Assembly (NCBI RefSeq): GCF_037969765.1
Contig: NZ_CP150207.1
Location: 3,465,001 to 3,529,000, forward strand
DNA from: Paenibacillus sp. FSL W8-0186
Lineage (GTDB): Bacteria > Bacillota > Bacilli > Paenibacillales > Paenibacillaceae
Direction of reading: 5' to 3'
DNA length: 64,000 bases
This document shows, in pieces, positions 44,963 through 47,187 of this stretch (its first letter is position 1; each line of letters starts with the position of its first letter). The notes below the pieces were generated by a model, which ran no database searches, was not told the origin of the DNA, and saw nothing but the letters and a program-made list of their open reading frames with translations. A program made the position numbers and the translations under genes.

Positions 44963-44993
44963 TTGCATAACGAACTTACGTTCGGTGTATAAT
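44963..44993 (+). promoter_or_regulatory. SOS operon promoter
   Basis: -35-like TTGCAT at 44963 and -10 TATAAT at 44988 with a 19-nt spacer. The spacer contains the first LexA box, so LexA binding would directly block RNA polymerase. Confidence 0.7.
44971..44984. promoter_or_regulatory. LexA box 1
   Basis: CGAACTTACGTTCG is a perfect CGAAC-N4-GTTCG palindrome, the Bacillus LexA (DinR) consensus, lying between -35 and -10. Confidence 0.88.
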
Positions 44994-45001
44994 ATATAAA
45001 A

Positions 45002-45015
45002 CGAATATACGTTCG
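45002..45015. promoter_or_regulatory. LexA box 2
   Basis: CGAATATACGTTCG differs from the consensus at one position. It lies 31 nt (three helical turns) downstream of box 1, over the transcription start. Confidence 0.78.
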
Positions 45016-45035
45016 CATTATGGTGGTGAAATATC

Positions 45036-45404
45036 ATGATTAACTCAACAATCGAGACAGAAGAGGATATTCAAATCATCAAAGAGTACACCTTGCTGCC
45101 TATTTTGCTGGATATGCTGGCAAGGGATATTGAGGAGCTTAGCCTGCAGCAGAATAAATTGATTTACAATCTCGTGATCTTTTATCTTAAGGGAATTGAA
45201 AGCAGCATCCATCTCGAGCTGAAAACCCTCAGAAGCAAAATGCGGCAGCAGCGCATTCAAGTGCTGGACACGACGATGAACGCGCTGGGCGTCGAAGTAG
45301 AGTACAAGGTTCGGGGATATATTCACCGTTTCAAAATGCTCAGAAGCCTGGTGAAGGCGGAGCTGATGATTCTTCTTATGAGACTGTGGGAGGCGCCCAA
45401 ATGA
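45036..45404 (+). CDS. SOS-regulated small helical protein of unknown family (paralogue of 46669-47187)
   Basis: 122 residues, all-helical by pattern, rich in Leu, Glu, Lys and Arg. First gene after the LexA-controlled promoter; GGTGGTGA precedes ATG 45036. Its stop overlaps the polymerase start by 4 nt. Similar to the third gene: DIQIIKEYTLLPILLDML against DMEVIKSYIILPVALEIV, and near the end GVEVEYKVRGYIHRFKMLRS against DIRYRFVCRGMEDEFTMTRD. It is not like YolD, the usual neighbour of UvrX-type polymerases. No function known; a polymerase accessory or clamp-like partner is an inference from position. Confidence 0.82.
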   Translation: MINSTIETEEDIQIIKEYTLLPILLDMLARDIEELSLQQNKLIYNLVIFYLKGIESSIHLELKTLRSKMRQQRIQVLDTTMNALGVEVEYKVRGYIHRFKMLRSLVKAELMILLMRLWEAPK

Positions 45405-46672
45405 TAAGCGCGCGCGAAAGGACGATTTTTTTGGCAGATTGCCAAAGCTTCTATGCCAGCATCGAAAAAGCGGATCATCCGGGATGCCAGAACAAACCGG
45501 TAGCCGTAGCGGGAGACCCCGCCCGCCGTTCAGGAATTATTCTGGCGGCCTGCCCCATCGCCAAAAGCTTTGGGGTAACGACGGCGGAGCGTCTGGGAGA
45601 AGCGATCCGCAAATGCCCGGGTCTCGTCGTCATGCGCCCGCGGATGCAGCATTACATCGATATATCTCTGATGATTACGGACATTTACCGGGAATACACC
45701 GATTTGGTCGAAGTTTTTTCGATCGACGAGCAATTTCTCGACGTATCGGGAAGCCTGCACCTGTTCCAGGGCGATCCGCTCGCCATGGCGAGGTCGATTC
45801 AGCAGAAGGTGCTTAAACAGACCGGCGTATGGGTACGCATCGGCATCAGCTCCAACAAAATGCTTGCCAAGCTGGCTACTGACATCTGGGCGAAGAAAAA
45901 TGAGAGCGGACTATATGTCCTGCCCAAAGCTAATGTGCCTGAGGCGCTTTGGCCGCAGCCGATTCCCAAAATGTTCGGGGTCGGCTCCCGTATGGCTGCT
46001 CACTTCACCCGGCTCGGAATGTACCAGATCGGCGATATTGCCCAAACACCGCTGCCGGTGCTGAAGGACAAATTCCGCGCCCGCTTCGGCAAGCAAAGCG
46101 ATATTCAGGCGGAGGTCATGTGGAGGACGGCGAACGGGCTTGACGATTCCCCGGTGACGCCGCGCACCTTCGACGCCGCGCCGAAATCGGTCAGCCATAT
46201 GATGACGCTGCCGCGGGATTATGCCGAGCAGGATGAGATCGACACCGTATTGCTTGAGCTTGTAGAGGAGGTCTGCCGGGATTGCCGGCGCAAAGGTTAT
46301 ATGGGGCAGGTCGTTACCGTCAGCTGCCTGTGCAGTCCCTATGATGCGCGCCTCGGCTTCTCCCGGCAGATGAAGATGGCCGATCCGAGCCATCATACAA
46401 ATACCGTCTACGAAGCGGCCAAGAGACTGTTCTATCGCCACTGGAACACTCTGCCGGTACGCCGCTTAGGCGTTGCGCTTAGCGGTCTTGCCTCCGACCA
46501 GGGCTACCAGCTGACCCTTTTTGAGGATCAAGTAAAGCTTCGGGCCTTGGACAAAGCAACCGATCTGATTAAAGACCGCTACGGCAGCGCGGCGATTATG
46601 AGAGCCTCCTCATTGACGACATCAGGGCAGGCCAGAGAACGGGCAAGAAAGATTGGAGGGCACTATAAATGA
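45401..46672 (+). CDS. Y-family translesion DNA polymerase (UvrX/DinB-UmuC type)
   Basis: 423 residues. Catalytic palm motifs FLADCQSFYASIEK (D13) and EVFSIDEQFLDVSGS (D109, E110), helix-hairpin-helix region around KMFGVGSRMAAHFTRLGM, and a little-finger domain to residue about 400 (DSPVTPRTFDAAPKS...). The DCQSFYAS form places it with the UvrX/YqjW group rather than DinB proper. A beta-clamp motif of the QLTLFE type is present near 370 (YQLTLFED). ATG 45401 with GGGAGG overlaps the previous stop (ATGA). Copies damaged DNA at the cost of mutations; SOS induced. Confidence 0.93.
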   Translation: MISARERTIFLADCQSFYASIEKADHPGCQNKPVAVAGDPARRSGIILAACPIAKSFGVTTAERLGEAIRKCPGLVVMRPRMQHYIDISLMITDIYREYTDLVEVFSIDEQFLDVSGSLHLFQGDPLAMARSIQQKVLKQTGVWVRIGISSNKMLAKLATDIWAKKNESGLYVLPKANVPEALWPQPIPKMFGVGSRMAAHFTRLGMYQIGDIAQTPLPVLKDKFRARFGKQSDIQAEVMWRTANGLDDSPVTPRTFDAAPKSVSHMMTLPRDYAEQDEIDTVLLELVEEVCRDCRRKGYMGQVVTVSCLCSPYDARLGFSRQMKMADPSHHTNTVYEAAKRLFYRHWNTLPVRRLGVALSGLASDQGYQLTLFEDQVKLRALDKATDLIKDRYGSAAIMRASSLTTSGQARERARKIGGHYK

Positions 46673-47187
46673 GCAAAAAGCTATCAGGCAACGGCCTTTG
46701 GGAATCAAGCCGGATGATGCTCCCCCAGCATAAGGAGCAGTCCGTATCAGCCAGCCGGCAGGCGGCGGGTGAAGCAGCAGCAGGCGGGGCCGCGCACCGG
46801 ACCGTTTCTCCTCCAACGGCCAAGGATATGGAAGTCATCAAGAGTTACATCATTTTGCCTGTAGCTCTCGAAATCGTCGAGAAGAAGAACAGGGAAGTCG
46901 AAATGTCGTCCCAGACCTTCAAAGCCCTCTATGCCGCAGCGACGAAAGTGTTGGCTCAGCATATCCGCGGAGATATCCAGCGATACCGCAAATCCCTTCT
47001 GGAGCAGGGCATTCGCATTTTCGAGCCGTCGATGGACGGTCTGGACATCCGCTATCGCTTCGTATGCCGCGGCATGGAAGACGAGTTTACAATGACCAGG
47101 GATTATTTGAAATCCCAAGTCAGCCTGGCCATCGGCCATTACACGAACCATTTGACTGCGATTTTGCGCGGAACGGGCAAGCGCTAA
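46669..47187 (+). CDS. SOS operon third gene, paralogue of 45036-45404
   Basis: 172 residues; starts with a 4-nt overlap (ATGA) with the polymerase gene. Residues 1-50 are a low-complexity Ser/Gln/Ala-rich extension missing from the first gene (QAAGEAAAGGAAHRT); residues about 52-170 align with the 122-residue paralogue. Charged, helical, no membrane segment, no known family. Two paralogues in one operon suggest a heterodimer or two alternative partners of the polymerase (inference). Confidence 0.82.
   Translation: MSKKLSGNGLWESSRMMLPQHKEQSVSASRQAAGEAAAGGAAHRTVSPPTAKDMEVIKSYIILPVALEIVEKKNREVEMSSQTFKALYAAATKVLAQHIRGDIQRYRKSLLEQGIRIFEPSMDGLDIRYRFVCRGMEDEFTMTRDYLKSQVSLAIGHYTNHLTAILRGTGKR

Follow-up and report, generated by a model that had tools for sequence, protein, structure and literature searches.

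A Paenibacillus operon with LexA-type boxes in which a YqjW/UvrX-type polymerase lies between a free and an arm-bearing YhjD-type protein

It is openly disputed whether the Gram-positive Y-family polymerase PolY2 acts by itself or as part of a mutasome: models of a YqjW-YqjX-RecA assembly stand against B. subtilis genetics that show little need for YqjX. In its main text, PMC12926913 (Feb 2026) presents "Cohnella abietis YhjD" as a third small-subunit variant of the YqjW-YqjX-RecA mutasome, and the AlphaFold models described there have the arm inserted in the polymerase in three cases, namely YqjX, the arm by itself and C. abietis YhjD. According to the part of PMC13335488 considered here, loss of YqjX hardly alters mutagenesis in B. 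subtilis and PolY2 fills gaps alone; the same part reports that the authors detected neither a PolY2-YqjX nor a PolY2-RecA contact.

The operon described here lies in a 64,000-nucleotide stretch of the genome of Paenibacillus sp. FSL W8-0186 (the window), and all of its features are on the forward strand. Gene A (45036..45404) encodes an armless YhjD-type protein of 122 aa, Pol (45401..46672) a YqjW/UvrX-type Y-family DNA polymerase of 423 aa, and C (46669..47187) a protein of 172 aa with a YolD arm and a YhjD body. Reading of the open frames bears out the arrangement given in a preliminary description of this DNA, with all three frames present in the order A-Pol-C and an ATGA stop/start overlap at both the A/Pol and the Pol/C junctions.

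Pol belongs to NCBIfam PRK03103 (580.8 bits, cut-off 381), which we take to be the group holding YqjW and UvrX, and Pfam IMS and IMS_C both match it. The catalytic residues are intact, comprising the SIDE motif and the N-terminal aspartate, the D in FLADCQSFYAS. A beta-clamp motif, QLTLF, occupies Pol residues 370-374 (46508..46522), followed by a RecA-NT-like motif at residues 382-406 (46544..46618). The tail of Pol aligns with the N-terminus of the RecA of its own genome with a score of 40, which none of 1000 shuffles reached. The genome has one Y-family gene besides Pol, and a genome-wide search for the YolD family PF08863 found no member anywhere.

Two LexA-type boxes precede A, in agreement with the double LexA promoter of the preliminary description. 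Box 1, CGAACTTACGTTCG (44971..44984), was found by pattern scan, and box 2, CGAATATACGTTCG (45002..45015), lies 31 bp from it. The box pattern matched four times upstream of A when both strands are counted, against 0.61 expected, and 0 of 100 shuffles reached four. The form CGAACNNNNGTTCG occurs at four sites in the 5.66 Mb genome, box 1 among them, and the genome's own recA frame is preceded at 96 bp by a like box, CGAATATATGTTCG. Between the boxes, a possible -10 element TATAAT (44988..44993) was read by eye, with TTGCAT at 44963-44968 and a spacer of 19 nt; it is absent from the promoter-scan list, which covered spacers of 16-18 nt. Of 41 loci with a YhjD gene before Pol-C, 30 carry one or more strict boxes ahead of the operon, and 21 of the 41 carry two boxes 28-37 bp apart. 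The boxes and the gene overlaps together support the earlier claim of SOS control and coupling.

By sequence comparison, C is a two-part protein, a YolD/YqjX arm on a YhjD body unrelated to YolD. Residues 1-24 (46669..46740) form the arm, as judged from invariant columns and the arm consensus; residues 51-168 (46819..47172) form the body, for which AlphaFold gives two long helices, a small beta sheet and a helix. Aligned with 29 YolD N-termini, the C arm scores 99.8 on average and 73 at minimum, compared with a mean of 19.8 and a maximum of 44 for shuffles. The C body scores 25.2 against YolD bodies and 25.0 when shuffled. Sixteen of the 18 invariant columns in 25 C relatives fall within residues 1-21. 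The consensus start of the C1-type proteins behind Pol, MSKKLxGNGLWESSRMMLPQHKE (112 sequences), is nearly identical to that of the YolD proteins behind Pol, MSKKLxGNGL(F/W)ESSRMMLPEHKE (29 sequences), and a plasmid "YolD-like family protein" of Paenibacillus matches C over its first 20-31 residues only, at 64-90% identity. On the arm scores and these plasmid matches, C carries the N-terminal arm of the YolD/YqjX family. A second form, C2, with the divergent arm MSKLDGNERWKSKMLLTEHQEQY, is present in Cohnella and other Paenibacillaceae.

The body of C is a different matter. A Pfam search with C gave no hit at E 1, PF08863, the YolD body, included. C was therefore ruled out as a YolD protein, its body having no Pfam match and scoring like shuffles. 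In single-chain AlphaFold models, the body of C is confident and the arm disordered, with a mean pLDDT near 50. Foldseek found no match to C in the PDB at E 0.001, so the body suggests no function. The C protein of Paenibacillus woosongensis is 98% identical to the one in the window, and mean column identity among C relatives is 52%.

A and C are related, as had been claimed: BLASTP aligns them at 24% identity over 109 columns (E 6e-11), both match phrog_34234, and both contain the I-K-x-Y-x-x-L-P and RG blocks. Relatives of A and of C alike carry the precomputed Pfam label PF26325.1, and thus the label of a YhjD-type family, presumably the same family as the one named YhjD. The AlphaFold model of A, also a single-chain fold, has a mean pLDDT of 89.3 and the same order of elements as the C body. 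Mean column identity among relatives of A is 75%, far above that of C. These comparisons indicate that A is a YhjD body without an arm, a relative from another clade than C. The preliminary description had placed both proteins outside known families; neither has a Pfam hit of its own or a meaningful NCBIfam hit, and yet the PF26325/phrog_34234 kinship rules out that they are wholly unknown. That they are not YolD proteins holds for the whole of A but, in C, for the body only; residues 1-24 of C contradict it. Likewise, the proposed paralogy survives as a shared domain and not as a pair of sister duplicates made in the operon; a local duplication is ruled out by their separate clades in the YhjD tree. 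A phage origin of A was also considered and rejected, tblastn finding no relative among 247 pattern matches in viral contigs. Phage records that match A are limited to five from Paenibacillus larvae phages, at about 30%, and none matched C. In Paenibacillus larvae phage Heath (L003 3989-4375), an armless YhjD gene adjoins an XRE-type regulator, and its start is preceded at 34 bp by a LexA-like palindrome.

The closest described counterpart of C is C. abietis YhjD, after which we name the domain; as given in the main text of PMC12926913, it too joins a YolD-type N-terminal arm to a domain unrelated to YqjX and is encoded beside a YqjW/UvrX-type polymerase. C has this same build, and its body is homologous to proteins of Cohnella species other than C. 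abietis; Cohnella proteins built this way have bodies that share a clade with that of C. An arm plus YhjD as small subunit is thus already known, and the claim that C stands outside known systems had to be given up on account of its arm and of the published "YolD arm plus unrelated domain". The difference is that the text of PMC12926913 has one small subunit per polymerase, whereas the window has an additional armless YhjD before Pol. In the main-text passages considered here and in section 22, that paper mentions neither an armless YhjD ahead of Pol nor any LexA boxes associated with YhjD. In the texts searched, we found no prior mention of armless YhjD as a recurrent neighbor of YqjW-type polymerases or of the A clade, and no description of a single body exchange on the polymerase tree. 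Boxes before stand-alone YhjD genes were not found described either, and lists of the B. subtilis LexA regulon may include yhjD.

Other systems share parts of this design. B. subtilis YqjW-YqjX and SPbeta UvrX-YolD have in common with the operon the PRK03103 group, the arm, SOS control and gene overlap. The YolD body is of the SH3 type. B. subtilis YqjX and SPbeta YolD have this body, while C has the helix-sheet YhjD body in its place; the SPbeta order is YolD-UvrX, and here it is Pol-C, with gene A in addition. E. coli Pol V (UmuD'2C) is alike in outline, with a Y-family polymerase, a RecA contact motif and, in published models, a small subunit with an arm. However, Pfam and NCBIfam gave no LexA/UmuD-type peptidase hit for A or C, which rules out UmuD kinship, and no cleavage step is seen. 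Like the ImuA-ImuB-DnaE2 system, the operon groups several proteins with a Y-family member under SOS control, but Pol has an intact active site and the operon lacks a DnaE2 or ImuA frame. Kinship with ImuA/ImuB is ruled out on the same grounds, the active site of Pol and the want of such a partner among the frames.

We examined gene order in 80 named loci, which are the best 80 of 356 relatives from a search with the C alignment and are for this reason biased towards operons like that of the window. Within these best 80 of 356, the A-Pol-C order is conserved, with A within 2 bp of Pol in 38 loci. A different armless YhjD lies 12 and 210 bp upstream in two loci and about 1 kb away in one. In another 29 of the 80, an intact Pol-C has no YhjD before Pol, so C does not need A, and A is not obligatory. 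The remainder comprises Pol-C-YolD (2 of 80), a cut polymerase (6 of 80) and C with a YolD-like frame and no Pol (2 of 80). The Pol/C junction has a 4-base overlap (ATGA or equal) in 76 of 78 measured cases, and the junction of an upstream YhjD with Pol has one in 35 of 40.

A survey chosen by rule covered 34 genomes, the first two of each of 19 genera (fewer in some) and three for the genus of the window. Counting as YqjW-type the loci of at least 500 bits and the split gene of one genome (G023), a tally by hand gave 33 loci in 32 genomes, with arm plus YhjD behind Pol in 13, arm plus YolD in 19 and neither in one. An armless YhjD lies directly upstream of Pol in eight loci (two A-Pol-C, six YhjD-Pol-YolD) and about 230 bp from Pol in one further locus. 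These combinations show that the first and third slots vary independently, armless YhjD genes also accompanying Pol-YolD pairs without C. Elsewhere, an armless YhjD follows YolD in loci of genus g7 (L270, L271, L284-L288) and on a plasmid (L184), and in one locus (L247) it lies between Pol and YolD. At least four gene orders thus have an armless YhjD beside a YqjW-type Pol, with overlapping frames. A YhjD match was found in 123 of 299 Bacilli genomes. Within the family, with at most 12 candidates scored per genome, at least 292 of 295 genomes have one; the three without one among the matches listed all belong to genus g8.

Several relatives have interrupted polymerases or odd neighbors. In P. 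ihumii A-Pol-C loci (L077 4376-9779, L078 2578-5943, L105, L016), an insert of about 20 kb interrupts Pol near codon 283-292; it contains two frames resembling integrases and one HTH frame resembling an excisionase, and it carries its own YhjD-Pol-YolD set at the junction. We take this insert to resemble Tn554-like elements. Pol genes are broken at the same residues, 283-292, in L180 and L109 (P. periandrae), in L185 (P. lautus plasmid pAZOPL1) and in L263 (G014), and recombinase relatives adjoin the break in L180 and L185. Because of this shared break point and these recombinase relatives, the Pol gene looks like a recurrent integration site. In L269 (2106-5888, G023), Pol is interrupted by a long open stretch, with a frame of 1260 aa in which Pfam and NCBIfam matched nothing but the polymerase parts; this is perhaps an intein or another insert. 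In L061 (4226-5490, G260), Pol is split into two overlapping frames covering residues 6-246 and 227-423. A P. sonchi plasmid (L187 3995-4465) encodes an arm-plus-YhjD protein, and neither annotation nor search gave a polymerase within 4 kb of it. In L122 (3998-5053), L125 (3974-5058), L170, L172 and L173, C is followed by a YolD-like frame without most of the arm; in L122 and L125 this frame starts near RRFLPQHKES, and no polymerase was found in the stretch fetched.

The history of the two slots differs. A polymerase tree was built from 81 sequences by quick search, with SH-aLRT support alone and near-identical rows dropped. On it, the exchange between YolD and arm plus YhjD amounts to one change among 74 labelled rows, and adjacency of an armless YhjD to 15 changes. 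The simple reading is that fusion of the YolD arm to a YhjD body happened once and that armless YhjD genes became neighbors of the polymerase on many occasions. C without A also occurs inside the same Pol subclade (L017, L019, L160). A tree of 115 YhjD domains, which has few columns and unsettled bootstrap support and from which near-identical rows were dropped, places the C bodies in one group (100/99) of 47 rows, namely the window, 24 C1, 17 C2 and five stand-alone proteins. The A proteins form another group (100/100) of 18 rows on a long stem, not sister to the C group, and YhjD genes preceding Pol-YolD are scattered over several other places. Apart from the window, the A clade has 17 rows, 16 of them before Pol-C and the remaining one belonging to the split P. 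ihumii gene.

LexA-type boxes extend to YhjD genes that stand alone, defined as those that lack a same-strand Pol or YolD neighbor within 300 bp, in fetched DNA of sometimes only 1.5 kb. After removal of near-identical sequences, 33 of 41 stand-alone YhjD genes have an upstream LexA-type palindrome by a looser pattern, in most cases no more than 90 bp from the first start codon; the background is 31 in 1852 windows of the same loci. Other genes of these loci, some of which may share a promoter region with YhjD, have a box in 14 of 120 cases (Fisher p 6e-16, a nominal value since the sequences are related). For the operon classes, made non-redundant in the same way, this looser pattern was found in 21 of 26 A-Pol-C, 24 of 51 Pol-C, 18 of 23 Pol-YolD and 6 of 10 YhjD-Pol-YolD loci, and in 2 of 8 Pol loci without a recognised body. 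Operon-internal genes (C, and YhjD behind YolD) have boxes at chance values and are a fair negative control. With 33 of 41 against 14 of 120, YhjD looks, from sequence, like an SOS family of many related bacteria, with or without a polymerase beside it.

We favor the reading, at a probability of about 0.6, that this is an SOS-induced translesion polymerase operon in which C is anchored on Pol by its arm and A is an extra, free YhjD body. LexA would occupy both boxes. DNA damage would lead to RecA filaments and LexA cleavage, and A, Pol and C would then be made from one coupled transcript. Pol would dock on the beta clamp through QLTLF and on RecA through its RecA-NT tail. C would serve as the small subunit, its disordered arm, inherited from YolD/YqjX, gripping Pol by insertion and placing the YhjD body, the replacement of the SH3 body, beside the active site. 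There this body may take over the job of the SH3 body or do something new, with a presumed effect on mutagenesis. Most likely, A would have the same polymerase as its target, through pairing with the C body or through direct binding to Pol or RecA. The arm probably matters at least in this clade, as a deep clade froze the arm and exchanged the body. The B. subtilis data in the part of PMC13335488 considered here speak against a required small subunit, and so against this model.

Those same B. subtilis results would suit a polymerase that works alone, with the small proteins dispensable or merely restraining, as argued there for PolY2/YqjX. We consider this improbable for the present operon: the C arm is nearly frozen (16 of the first 21 residues invariant in 25 relatives) and was kept despite exchange of the whole body, unlike what one would expect of an idle protein. 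The preliminary description predicted a complex of fixed ratio, in which A and C would be an obligate hetero-pair bound to Pol. The overlapping genes, the occurrence of the A clade with C in 16 of 17 non-window rows and the far higher conservation of A (75%) than of C (52%) would all fit such a pair. It is nevertheless rather unlikely, as C occurs without A in 29 of the 80 named loci (best 80 of 356), even within one Pol subclade, and A and C are not sisters in the YhjD tree.

A could instead be an independent SOS protein that is merely co-transcribed, for example one that modulates RecA filaments or the SOS signal; the mutasome would then consist of Pol and C only, with or without RecA. Armless YhjD genes lie repeatedly beside YqjW-type polymerases, in at least four orders and with overlapping frames, and fusion of the same body to a polymerase-binding arm ties the YhjD domain to the polymerase; both observations make an independent A doubtful. 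This alternative draws on the boxes of stand-alone YhjD genes with no adjacent polymerase (33 of 41, against 14 of 120 other genes), the absence of A from many Pol-C loci, the 15 changes that armless YhjD adjacency needs on the Pol tree, and the XRE regulator that adjoins the YhjD gene of Paenibacillus larvae phages.

C is a natural domain swap, in which the arm was kept almost letter for letter and the whole body exchanged, once on the Pol tree. From this swap one would expect the arm to be what the polymerase depends on, and the domain-swapped C provides ready-made constructs for testing this. Boxes before most of the sampled YhjD genes would place an uncharacterised family in the SOS response. 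Tentatively, and as a possibility that we hold at well under even odds, YhjD may be an SOS family that LexA controls in the Bacilli and may, in addition, supply translesion polymerases with a second class of accessory body, occurring free, beside Pol-YolD or on a YolD arm. In the A-Pol-C clade, anchored and free YhjD bodies would then meet on one polymerase with RecA, forming a four-part mutasome.
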